From Sphaerosporella brunnea (Eukaryota > Ascomycota > Pezizomycetes > Pezizales > Pyronemataceae), in NCBI GenBank assembly GCA_008704415.1, contig VXIS01000078.1:1-64000 (forward strand): a stretch of 64,000 nucleotides of DNA, written 5' to 3'. The notes under the pieces were generated by a model. That model was not told the DNA's origin, did no database searches, and saw only the letters and a list, made by a program, of their open reading frames with translations. The position numbers were made by a program, and so were the translations under genes. The first letter of the stretch is position 1, and every line of letters begins with the position of its first letter. Shown here one piece after another: positions 10,325 through 15,312 of this stretch.

Positions 10325-13184
10325 ATCCGCCCTCGAAGCTCTCGTAGTATCACGCCGGGGAATTTTAGGCACTTCGAGGGCTGGTTGCTTACTCAGAGAT
10401 TGTTCCTTTTATTATGATGACCTTCTTGTGCATACTACTTACAACTTTTTGTCATGATTAGACATGAACGGGGTCCGGTGTTTTTGTTTTTTTTTCTGCT
10501 TTTTTTCTGCTGTGATTGGGTGGGACAATTTCAAGGCTTTTTTCTTCTTATCCTTCCAATTCTTCTTCACCTTTACATAGTTCCTTTTCTTTTTTCCTTT
10601 CGATTCTTTCCAGTGTCGGCATTGACTTATTTTCTGGAGAGGCGGGTGGGTTTTCTTCTTTTTTGCTTTGTGGCACGGAGTTATATATATACATTATTTC
10701 CTCCTTTGCATGGCATTTTCATGTTTTCTCTAGCTGTTATCACGGTCTTGTTTTGGAGGCAGAGGCGTTGATGTGTTGTTTTTCTCTTCGTCCCTCTTAC
10801 ACGACCCCCCACAGGATAAAACAGCGACGAGTTGCGTGGTTATGTTGCTTGCACTTGCTTTTTGGTTCTTTTTTGGGGAGGGGGGTTTGTCTGGGCTGAG
10901 GATATGTGGCATTTGGGAGGGAGAAAGAGTTGCGGACCGAGGAATGGCAACTTCGGATTCCGGGCTCGAGCTCTGGTTGAATAATTTTTTATTTGTGTGG
11001 TGTGTCATGTGTGATGTGATGTGTTGAGTGGTTTTTTTGTTTTTGTTTTAATCATCCTGTATTCGGCCGCTTGCGGTCATGACAGAGTAGTACATGCAGA
11101 CTGCCCTTAGGCCTTGGGGCCTACAGTCGGGTGTGTCTGTAAAAGAAATACGACGTCAGGGAATAGAGAAAACTCATAGCTGATATAGGAGAAAAGTGGT
11201 CCACACATGTTCGTCATTTCATTTTAGGCCTCTCAGGCCAGGTCCCGATCTTTGTGCACGCGAGGAAATCCAGCACAGCCTTGGTACAACGATCGTCTGC
11301 CAACAAAGCCTTGAGGGGGTGGGGGTCTTTCTTCTCCCACTCCCTTTCTTTCCTTCTGCTGTCGTGGCCTCGATGTGTTGGTTGAGTGGTGAGTGGTGGT
11401 GATTGGTGATTGGGCTTCACGAAAAGGAGAGTACAACCATGACGTGCGAGTGAGAATTATGATCCAAGTCCCCCGTGATGATACATATTAATGGCCATAG
11501 ATCCTCCTAGAGGTAGATGGTACATACAGAGCACATATACCACCATATCTATACAACAAAAGCCCCCCAAAACGCACCTTGAACACATTGAGACATCCGG
11601 CTGGCAGCTTGGGATTCACAGAACTGAGATCTAGGTCTAGCTGGTGAAAGGGCGATGATGACCTTTTGGGGATCTGTAGTTGTTAGTGTAGCTAGGGCGA
11701 ATTGACACGGCTGAAGGCTTTCGGTGGGGGTTTTCGCTTGCGTTTGGGATTTGAGTGCTTGCATGGCTTTCGGCGGTTGGCTTCGGTGCTTGGTTCGAGT
11801 GATGGGAGGAGTGACATAGCGAGATGGTGAATCACGCTCCGAACCGTCTGCCGAGAAACTGGGTTTAAAGCTTAGTATGGTGCACGCAGCATATGTATCA
11901 ATGGCCTCTCATGTTTGTGGATGGCGGGATTCACCGCGTTCGCGGTCACCAGAAAGAGGGTCAAAACCGGTCCGTATGTTACCCCACTGCCCCCGTGGCA
12001 TTTAACAAAACAAAAAAGAAAACTGCATGTAACTCGAAGATATGGCCAGGTACGCACCTCGGGACCGTGCCTATGCGGCTACGCCCGCGCCCAGACATCG
12101 ATCAGGTATATTTGATTTATGTCCTCACTCCAGACCATTCTTGCAATGTTCCTCGAGCTAAGCTTGCCTTTCGTCGAGAACTGACGGCGGTGCTCGACGG
12201 TTGGCTACTAAGTACTAACGTGAACGAGCGAGGTGGGGTTCTTATAATTGTTGAGTACAAATGCCTGAAGTTTCTATTCTCTCGGTATCACCACGAATTC
12301 CTGGCCACAACAAACCGCCAACGTGTTGGTCAAACTCTTTGAGGTTGTTGAGAAACAGCTTCAATTGTTGTACCTCGCTCGTAGTTTATGGTTGCCAGTG
12401 AGGGTAGCGGTTGGCTGGAAGACCAGCCAGTTGACTGTCCGCCGACGAGAATAGAGACAGCCGAAATACGGACGAATCATGTTTCTATTCGAGTGGGCAA
12501 ATATGCCAAGCCTAAGAGAAATTCCCCCCATCGCCGTCATTGTTGCGTTGCCATCGCTCTCGCCCTCGTCCTCGCCATGGGATGAATTTGTCGACTTCAA
12601 GGCCTTCAAGGCCGCAATGAGGCATGAAAAGCTCTGTACTCTAATCTACTATATTGAAGAAGCTATGTGAGTTGACTTCACCACTTACCACTCGACCTCG
12701 GCACTTTGCCCATTGAGGGATATCGAGTTTTTTAGCATTCTCTGTTTCTCGAATCCTTCGCCCAGGCGCCTGGTGGTTGTGGCACAAGAAAGTCAAGTGA
12801 CATACTACATTTGTCCTCTCGTACTCGCACGGGATTCGTGGGCATGATTGTTTCGTCGTGTGTTGAAGGGACACCTGTGGAAATTGGTACTGGTTAATCA
12901 AGGCCATCGAAAAAAAAATACAGTCTCAAGAGCTCACGGGTGACTGTACTCTACAAGGTACCGTGGAGAGAGCTTAATCATCCTGATGATCGAGCCTGTT
13001 TAAAGAGGTGGTGGGTGGGCAGGGGTAGATTATCTCGAGCCACTAAGGCAACATCACCAACTCGAGCATACAACTTTTCACCACCCTCAAGAAACAAACG
13101 AAGTTCACAAGTTTTCCCTACACCCCCACCTACGTCCACACCGACACCCACCTCCATCGCAAAAACAACAGCACCGCCGCAAAC
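10325..13184. other. 2.9-kb spacer
   Basis: No gene seen. The first kilobase is T-rich and is probably the 3' end of the preceding gene. Beyond that there are short hairpins, such as GGTTGGCTGG..CCAGCC near 12410, and short open frames without resemblance to any family. The final 200 bases are presumably the SAR1 promoter and leader. Confidence 0.5.
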
Positions 13185-14143
13185 ATGTGGATGATAAGCT
13201 GGTGTATGCTATCTCCACCTGTCCCGAACGAACGGGGACCTCCTGAGCTTTAACTTTAGAATAACTGACAAAAAAACCCCAAGTCTGGGATGTCCTCGCC
13301 TCCCTCGGGCTCATGAACAAGCACGCAAGGCTGCTGTTCCTGGGCCTCGATAACGCCGGCAAGACGACGCTGCTGCACATGCTGAAGGTTAGTTCCATCC
13401 GTCCATCCATTCATCCATCGCATCGATGCCGGGTGTTAACAAAACCGCGCAGAACAACCGTGTCGCTATCCTGCCGCCCACTCTGCATCCCAGTGAGTCC
13501 CGTCGAAATGCCATTAAATAAATAAAAAAAAAAAACAATATCTAATGCGCAAAAGCTTCGGAGGAGCTCGCGATCGGCAACGTGAAGTTCACCATATTTG
13601 ACCTGGGTGGTCACCAGCAGGGTAAAAACCCTCCTCCCCCCCCCCCAATCTACAGTCCACTGACACTGTAAATAGCGCGTCGTCTCTGGAAGGACTGTTT
13701 CCCCGAGGTCACAGGCATCGTATTCCTTGTCGACGCCAAAGACCATGAGCGGCTTCTGGAGAGCAAAGCAGAGCTGGACGCGTTGCTGTCCATGGAGGAA
13801 CTGTCAAAGGTGCCATTCCTGATCCTGGGCAACAAAATCGATCACCCCTCTGCCATTTCCGAGGAGGAGCTTCGCAGCGTTCTCGGCCTGTATCAAACTA
13901 CTGGCAAGGCCAAGGTCCAGCTTGAGGGCATCAGGCCGATCGAGGTGTTTATGTGCTCGGTGGTTATGAGGCAGGGTACGTCTCCCCACTCCCCCTCTTC
14001 CTTTTGTGCCGAATAGAGGAAGTGTTTCGGCTTGGCTTAGAAAAACGCAAACCCTTATGCGCCAATGAAGGATGCTGACAGTTGTGTGTGCAGGATACGG
14101 AGAGGGCTTCAGGTGGATATCACAGTACTGTAGCGAGCAATGA
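13185..14143 (+). CDS. SAR1: Small COPII GTPase Sar1, C-terminus altered by a MITE
   Basis: Sar1 binds GTP to recruit the COPII coat at ER exit sites. Exons: 13185-13203, 13284-13387, 13453-13492, 13556-13621, 13676-13975, 14094-14143, all joined by GT..AG introns, giving 192 residues. The N-terminal amphipathic helix begins MWMISW. G1 is GLDNAGKT, G2 PTLHPTSEE, G3 DLGGHQQ, G4 NKID. The family normally ends at SQYV or similar near residue 189. Here the frame runs from Tyr188 into an inserted element and ends CSEQ. Removing the element and one TA (14128-14281) would restore a codon for Val and a TAG stop. The family's usual LQPTLHP reads LPPTLHP here. Functional unless the tail change matters. 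Confidence 0.95.
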
Positions 14144-14279
14144 GGTACGTACACGCTAGTGAGTCATCAACGTTAGCGCGCAGTGGCGAAGTCACTGCGC
14201 CACGTGGCACAGTGACTGCGCCACTGTCACAAAAGGCCGCTGGTGACAGGTGACGTACGTACCTCATTGCTCGCTACAG
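14128..14279. mobile_element. MITE, 152 bp, inserted in the last codons of SAR1
   Basis: A perfect 25-bp terminal inverted repeat (outer end CTGTAGCGAGCAATGAGG) lies at 14128-14152 and, inverted, at 14255-14279. TA duplications sit at 14126-14127 and 14280-14281. The interior is itself palindromic, with copies of GTCACTGCGCCA in both orientations. No coding capacity of its own, but its first 16 bases supply four SAR1 codons and the stop. TA duplication suggests a Tc1/mariner-type element. Confidence 0.92.
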
Positions 14280-14288
14280 TACGTCTAG

Positions 14289-14959
14289 ACTAGATACAAC
14301 AGCGCGCGCTCGCCGAAAACCCGTCTTTTCAGAGTTGGCACCGACCGGGTCACGTTCAATGACCGGGGGGGTCAGCAGAGGGACTGACCGGGGGTCAGTA
14401 ACGGGTCAGTGAGGTTAGGGTTGAGGTTGCGGTTGAAAATTTGCGGTGACGCCCGAGCACCCTCCTAATTCACAGTGTCACAACCGGATCAGCCTAGGGA
14501 GCTTCACGCTTATGAGGAGCAGCAAGCGGTGGCTCGCGCAATCAATGGACAGGATGACCATAATCCTTTATTCCTGGACATCGCTGATGCTCTGGGAGAC
14601 TCCTAGTAATTACCGCCGAGCCCCCCCCCGCCAAGTTCCCGCCGCGTTGTCTCTTTCCGGGCCCGCAAGATAGAAGTTCGTTCTTTCCCTTCGCCTTTCG
14701 GGTCTTCTCTGACCCGGCCATGGAGAGACGGAATTTTTCTTTTTTTTCCCTATGTTATTTTATTAGTTATACTGTTCAAATTCAAAGACTGGGAAGCTCT
14801 ATCCTACGTCCTCTGTCGGTCCGTCGCACGCTGTGGCTGTGGTGGGTAGTTCGCTGAAGTCAACTCCATGGGCGGACAGCGTCGCGGCTGCGGCATCATG
14901 AGCCATCACACACATATCATGTGACTTTTGACCCCTCGCTGACCCGGTCGTTGACCCTA
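14289..14959. other. SAR1 downstream spacer with an orphan exon-like frame
   Basis: GACCGGG/GGTCAG words recur at 14345-14410. From 14469 to 14606 a frame without ATG is open; it follows an intron-like acceptor (TTCACAG, ending 14475), has normal codon use and ends in TAG. It reads in part QPRELHAYEEQQAVARAING. I do not recognise it; it could be a last exon cut off from its gene or a chance frame. Confidence 0.3.
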
Positions 14960-14975
14960 GAGTGCCCGCCATCTA

Positions 14976-15310
14976 CTCGTTGGATTCAAAAAGATCGGGA
15001 CAGCGCTAAGCTAGAACAGGTAACGCTAACCCACGGCCGCCCCACCAAAATCGAATCACCGATTTCTTTTTATTCCGACCTTTCTTTTTTTATTCGGGGA
15101 ACGCTTCATTTGATTGATTTGTTTCGCGCTTCCATATTAATCTCTAGCATCATCTCTTTTTTTTTGAGTCTAGATTCAATCTTTTTCAAGAAACGTTGGG
15201 GTAGTTTTTGATTTTTCTTTGCGAGGCTATGGTTGTCGCCGTGGATTTTTTGGTGGGGTGCGGTTACCCGGCCTGTTTAGCGCTGTCCCGATCTTTTTGA
15301 ATCCAACGAG
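14976..15310. mobile_element. MITE A of the nested array, 335 bp
   Basis: A perfect 34-bp terminal inverted repeat (outer end CTCGTTGGATTC, inner end CAGCGCTAA) occupies 14976-15009 and 15277-15310. It is flanked by TA at 14974-14975 and 15311-15312; the right TA is shared with the next element. The T-rich interior has no credible coding frame. Confidence 0.9.
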
Positions 15311-15312
15311 TA

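Follow-up and report, generated by a model that had tools for sequence, protein, structure and literature searches.

An already redundant copy of SAR1 in Sphaerosporella brunnea, a mycorrhizal cup fungus, carries a MITE that, as judged from sequence divergence, probably entered it recently. The insertion is real and of an ordinary kind for a gene that is redundant, and the steps that led to it can be read in order. SAR1 was duplicated and the copy diverged; we consider it probable that the element later inserted into this redundant copy, and that the deposited protein model of the locus, which ends in QYV, is an artefact of the paralogue. The locus provides a clean case of a MITE in coding sequence: a paralogue in the genome preserves the empty site, and divergence shows in which order the events took place. 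It also illustrates how, given redundancy, a transposon can add residues to a protein end that is normally conserved. The window analysed here is a stretch of 64,000 nt and forms part of contig C617 (155,848 bases). Genome searches covered 50.6 Mb in 640 contigs, a set that may be incomplete or another version when compared with the published assembly (51.6 Mb and 872 contigs in the accessible part of PMC6908789).

The SAR1 copy of the window comprises six exons from position 13185, and GT and AG are kept at all five introns.

13185..13203, + strand: SAR1 copy exon 1 (homology gene model, GT-AG introns)
13284..13387, + strand: SAR1 copy exon 2, bearing K22R (homology gene model)
13453..13492, + strand: SAR1 copy exon 3, bearing D43N (homology gene model)
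13556..13621, + strand: SAR1 copy exon 4, bearing T68I (homology gene model)
13676..13975, + strand: SAR1 copy exon 5, bearing Y84C (homology gene model)
14094..14143, + strand: SAR1 copy exon 6 in the DNA reading, entering the element and ending in TGA at 14141-14143 (homology model and window letters)
14126..14127, no strand: TA target site, copy 1 (inverted-repeat analysis; empty site on contig C68)
14128..14279, no strand: non-coding element with terminal inverted repeats, 152 bp (inverted repeats, sister copies, window letters)
14280..14281, no strand: TA target site, copy 2 (inverted-repeat analysis, window letters)
14282..14288, + strand: displaced old ending, consisting of C (position 3 of the former Tyr codon), GTC (Val) and TAG (stop) (window letters)

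With modelled splicing, the DNA frame gives 192 residues ending SQYCSEQ, as the initial annotation had read it; the element completes the Tyr codon with its last base and contains the stop (TGA, 14141-14143). Joining 14127 to 14282 yields SQYV followed by a stop. The predicted protein matches PF00025 at 209.9 bits, in line with the SAR1/Arf family of COPII GTPases, and differs from the Sar1 encoded on C68 at four of the first 188 residues. It departs from the family in R22, N43, I68 and C84 and, in the DNA frame, in its CSEQ tail, an ending found in none of the 120 homologues listed (the best 120 of 6507, each standing for a cluster at 90% identity). The solved chains of SAR1a and SAR1b (198 residues) extend one residue beyond the aligned end, so a short C-terminal extension is at least not absurd.

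The two arms of the inverted repeat, at 14125-14152 and 14255-14282, each span 28 nt and are 100% complementary, with 25 nt of each arm belonging to the element and 3 nt (GTA / TAC) to the host or the duplicated target. Arm complementarity, the window letters and the empty site on C68 all bear out an earlier description of a 152-bp element that has TA duplications and whose 25-bp inverted ends match perfectly, and comparison with the empty site confirmed that the TA was duplicated. A four-base GTAC target was ruled out, as the base preceding TA differs between copies of the family. The element end holds stops in all three frames within twelve codons, so that an insertion read through from coding sequence ends translation at once. 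Folding of the RNA from 14110 to 14300 predicted an extremely stable hairpin (-106.3 kcal/mol, z -10.4).

When the genome was searched in six frames for the window protein, Sar1-like exons at 77-93% identity were recovered at two loci, C617 and C68; the remaining matches were at 32-40%, apart from the last one (81%), which is exon 6 of C617. The search thus found a second SAR1, located at C68:283532-284483, that is uninterrupted, encodes 189 residues and ends SQYV. Its empty site reads ATCACAGTACGTCTAGAC at the point where the window is longer by 154 bp, and its reading of TCACAGTACGTCTAG supports the displaced old ending at 14282..14288. The ancestral SQYV-stop ending proposed in the initial annotation is therefore the junction that the C68 copy has. 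The same annotation went further and took the window gene for the essential Sar1 itself, with the transposon end acting as its coding sequence and terminator. The frame for such a reading is present in the DNA, and in that respect the claim holds; the deposited protein ends QYV, which may contradict the CSEQ tail. Against the essential-gene part stands the uninterrupted SAR1 on C68, which has the usual residue at all four positions changed in the window, and by divergence the window copy would already have been separate when the element arrived. As regards a sole SAR1, the reading is refuted, and we regard it as a whole as extremely improbable.

The two genes belong to a duplicated block that was delimited with blastn.

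13024..14329, + strand: duplicated block with SAR1 copy 2, ~160 bp of upstream DNA, five introns and ~41 bp past the old stop (blastn)

When the window was compared with 24.7 kb of C68, only four matches were obtained (92-99% identity), all within 13024-14329, and no similarity was detected outside the block between these 24.7 kb and the 64-kb window (E 1e-5). Because introns are included and flanks are unmatched, the block represents a dispersed DNA duplication and not an allele. Alleles or haplotigs were ruled out on the unmatched flanks in the 24.7 kb of C68 and on the origin of the published strain, which was raised from a single spore according to the accessible part of PMC6908789.

With regard to divergence, the two SAR1 copies differ in 10 of the first 188 codons, six of the differences being silent. 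The window replacements are R22, N43, I68 and C84, and C68 has the usual residue at each of these positions (K in 117, D in 113, T in all 119 and Y in 118 of 119 homologues, i.e., the best 120 listed of 6507 minus the window's own entry, each a cluster at 90% identity). R22 was seen in 2 of the 119, and K22R is thus not unique to the window. These four residues would make C68 the parental locus. For the pair, dS was 0.047 and dN 0.0093 (ratio 0.20), and 6 of 370 aligned intron sites differed (1.6%). The coding sequences are without any substitution from after codon 135 to the insertion. Markers specific to the window copy lie at codons 84, 94 and 135 and, downstream of the site, in two additional bases within 14291-14294. 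The dN/dS of 0.20 indicates that selection is not absent from the pair as a whole, a ratio that does not tell how it is split between the copies; together with the intact GT-AG introns, it may mean that the window copy is still under some selection. Inspection by eye of the ten codon differences revealed no bias of the type that RIP would leave in a duplicate.

It is possible, if on balance doubtful, that the window copy is unexpressed or a dying pseudogene with a tail of no consequence, a view that overlaps with our main account and differs from it in the last step only. Four replacements at near-invariant sites would fit such decay, as would the copying of just ~160 bp of upstream DNA and the replacement of the original 3' region by a repeat. 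Against it, the frame is open, GT and AG are present at all five introns, and the dN/dS of the pair is 0.20.

The DNA beyond the block consists of repeats. The duplicated block stops exactly where a repeat of another family, ~630 bp long (14330-14959), has its terminus (CAGAGTTGGCACCG), and the original 3' region of SAR1 is replaced by this repeat from 14330. The terminus was found in seven of the nine copies examined, with unrelated DNA before it (by eye), so that a transposon edge coincides with the duplication breakpoint. A second TA-flanked MITE family is represented at 14974-15312 (~335 bp); its 36-nt inverted arms, with the TA counted in, are perfect, and it has numerous genomic matches.

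Further copies of the element within SAR1 were found across the genome, where its 25-nt end occurs at 63 places (up to 3 mismatches) and the reversed control pattern at none, which rules out chance and supports the earlier assignment to a MITE-type insertion. Both ends were present at 22 of the 34 loci examined, which are only part of those found by the genome search, at a spacing of 131 to 3595 bp. TA flanked 18 of the 22 paired copies on both sides; the other four are without TA on one side. The 131-153 bp form has at least three copies, search counts being lower bounds. The longest spacing belongs to an element on C621 (3595 bp), both ends of which are without mismatch over 19 bases. It contains minus-strand ORFs, one of which has a DDE_3 match (E 0.001) that falls short of the curated cut-off, and two other pieces showed no convincing family. 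Of its 16 relatives, 2 carry PF03184 or PF13358. The C621 element may thus be the putative autonomous partner, with a DDE-like ORF. In being short and non-coding, with perfect terminal inverted repeats and a TA duplication, and in having several copies along with a longer relative that shares their ends and contains a transposase-like ORF, the family resembles the TA-target MITEs of Tc1/mariner-pogo (DDE) transposons; it differs in that only three copies of the 131-153 bp form were recovered, as a lower bound, and in that Pfam matches of the transposase are weak.

The window element is identical to a copy on C323 except for a 21-bp gap in the latter, and one substitution and one indel separate it from a copy on C357. 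The element is thus 0-1 substitutions away from its sisters, against a divergence of 1.6-4.7% for the two genes. Provided that gene and element evolve at similar rates, the insertion is much younger than the duplication, and the gene struck was hence already a second copy. We infer a young insertion into an already redundant SAR1 copy, based on these sequence comparisons. The course of events began with the copying of SAR1 to the window locus as a ~1.3 kb DNA block with introns, and the window copy diverged. The C68 copy would keep the conserved protein and presumably do the essential job. Later, by the divergence estimates, a non-autonomous TA-target element entered the TA of the penultimate codon. 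As read from the DNA, the window copy would then have lost Val189 and gained Cys-Ser-Glu-Gln. Such an insertion was probably tolerated since the gene was redundant and the lesion, at the last residue, would cost only one terminal residue. A narrow literature search (titles and abstract starts) returned no report on point of MITE-made protein ends in fungi.

The deposited protein of the window locus, behind which stands a MycoCosm model (Sphbr2), equals the window protein through residue 188, including its four window-specific residues, and then ends in V189. To account for this ending, we went through the single removals that are 30-1499 nt long and begin no more than 400 nt from exon 6. QYV was reached by eight removals of exactly 154 nt and by three longer ones; TA-AG and GT-CA are among the ends of these QYV-giving removals, whereas GT-AG, GC-AG and AT-AC are not. 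A predictor limited to standard introns would not arrive at the QYV model, and transcript or protein evidence without the element therefore probably did. As no tested standard intron can produce the deposited gene model, it would reflect either an artefact of the paralogue or, in this fungus, RNA excision guided by the hairpin. Most likely, the QYV model arose in annotation as an artefact of the C68 paralogue: transcript evidence of that gene would have been placed on the window locus and the element taken for an intron. Cross-assignment of transcripts is favoured because, past codon 135 and as far as the insertion, the coding sequences of the two copies are identical. Trinity was used to assemble the RNA reads (stated in the accessible part of PMC6908789), and a merged Trinity contig of both SAR1 copies would look like the QYV model.

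A different source for the model would be the spliceosome, with the element removed as an introner whose end, CTACAG, serves as 3' splice site and GTACTG or GTAGCG as donor. The accessible part of PMC9860276 describes introners that bring their own 3' site and obtain the 5' one from the duplicated target, and the window element has GT at 14125 and 14130 and an AG ending at 14279. The likeness to these transposon-made introns lies in an element with terminal inverted repeats in a coding exon, an AG at its end and a possible donor from the target site. An intron at 14130-14279 would give SQYLRLD followed by a stop; neither GT-AG intron yields QYV, and the longer one leads to a long frameshifted tail. 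Within the range enumerated (30-1499 nt, within 400 nt of exon 6), no standard intron restored the host protein, in which respect the case differs from introners, and an intron that changes the frame would still be compatible with this result. By eye, both donors look less usual than most of the five SAR1 donors, and no further copy was recognised in a coding exon. We therefore hold removal by the spliceosome to be highly improbable, and return to the paralogue artefact as the preferred source of the model.

Transposon splicing has been reported in maize and worm. In animals, SOS splicing involves factors besides RTCB, and fungi usually rely on Trl1. By analogy, the 25-28 bp stem of the element RNA could be recognised and the element cut out exactly by a non-spliceosomal cut-and-ligate reaction, with QYV restored and the deposited model representing a real mRNA. 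This would agree with a deposited protein that is the window gene save for V189 in place of CSEQ, with 154-nt removals that yield QYV through non-standard ends, and with the extremely stable hairpin. Also encoded in the genome are a ligase of the RtcB family and a Trl1-like protein of the T4-RNA-ligase family. As in SOS splicing of animal mRNAs, a stable element with inverted repeats lies in an exon and the gene model omits exactly that element; the differences are the fungal host, a simpler cause at hand, and that the case is known here from DNA and the deposited protein. Indeed, the empty-site paralogue accounts for the model without new biology. In the accessible part of a review, SOS splicing is described as metazoan, an animal pathway in which ends are joined by the ligase RTCB. 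The fungal protein would have to be an RtcB of the animal type; the NCBIfam models PRK09588 and TIGR03073 both matched it below their cut-offs.

Nor was a second coding insertion recognised. After joining 21 of the 22 paired sites of the family (the one on C639 was excluded for 5 mismatches in its right end), no conserved gene was found across a junction. An open frame of at least 100 aa was present at nine of the 21 joined sites, and none of the nine exceeded a Pfam cut-off (two chance-level matches). In the 335-bp family, 11 of 20 loci were paired, and the sole joined frame above 110 aa was without a Pfam match. These tests cover joined frames of the stated lengths and would miss genes with introns at the site. 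A narrow literature search found no report of Tc1 removal from pre-mRNA. Taken on its own, exact excision guided by the hairpin at this locus seems very unlikely, and we give only a slight chance, a little below that, to the broader proposition that a fungus excises an inverted-repeat transposon from mRNA exactly, at no standard splice sites, keeping the QYV of a SAR1 copy, in an SOS-like process outside animals. The paralogue artefact thus remains our preferred explanation of the deposited ending.

As to the ligases themselves, the RtcB-family RNA ligase gene is located at C16:113866-115512 (L066 859-2505) and matched PF01139 at 176 bits; its matches to PRK09588 and TIGR03073, below the cut-offs, are to a prokaryote library (NCBIfam). 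The T4-RNA-ligase-family (Trl1-like) protein is encoded on C557 of the same genome.

Some other copies of the element family were also of note for their position. The nearest full-length sister (C357; L002 1501-1655) ends 73 bp before the ATG of a ribosomal protein S13/uS15 frame (PF08069; L002 1729 on), and it may lie in the 5' UTR or promoter of this gene. Two copies on C53 (60641-61033 and 107439-107842; L047 and L048) have 12-base host flanks that are reverse complementary to each other, which suggests an inverted duplicated segment.
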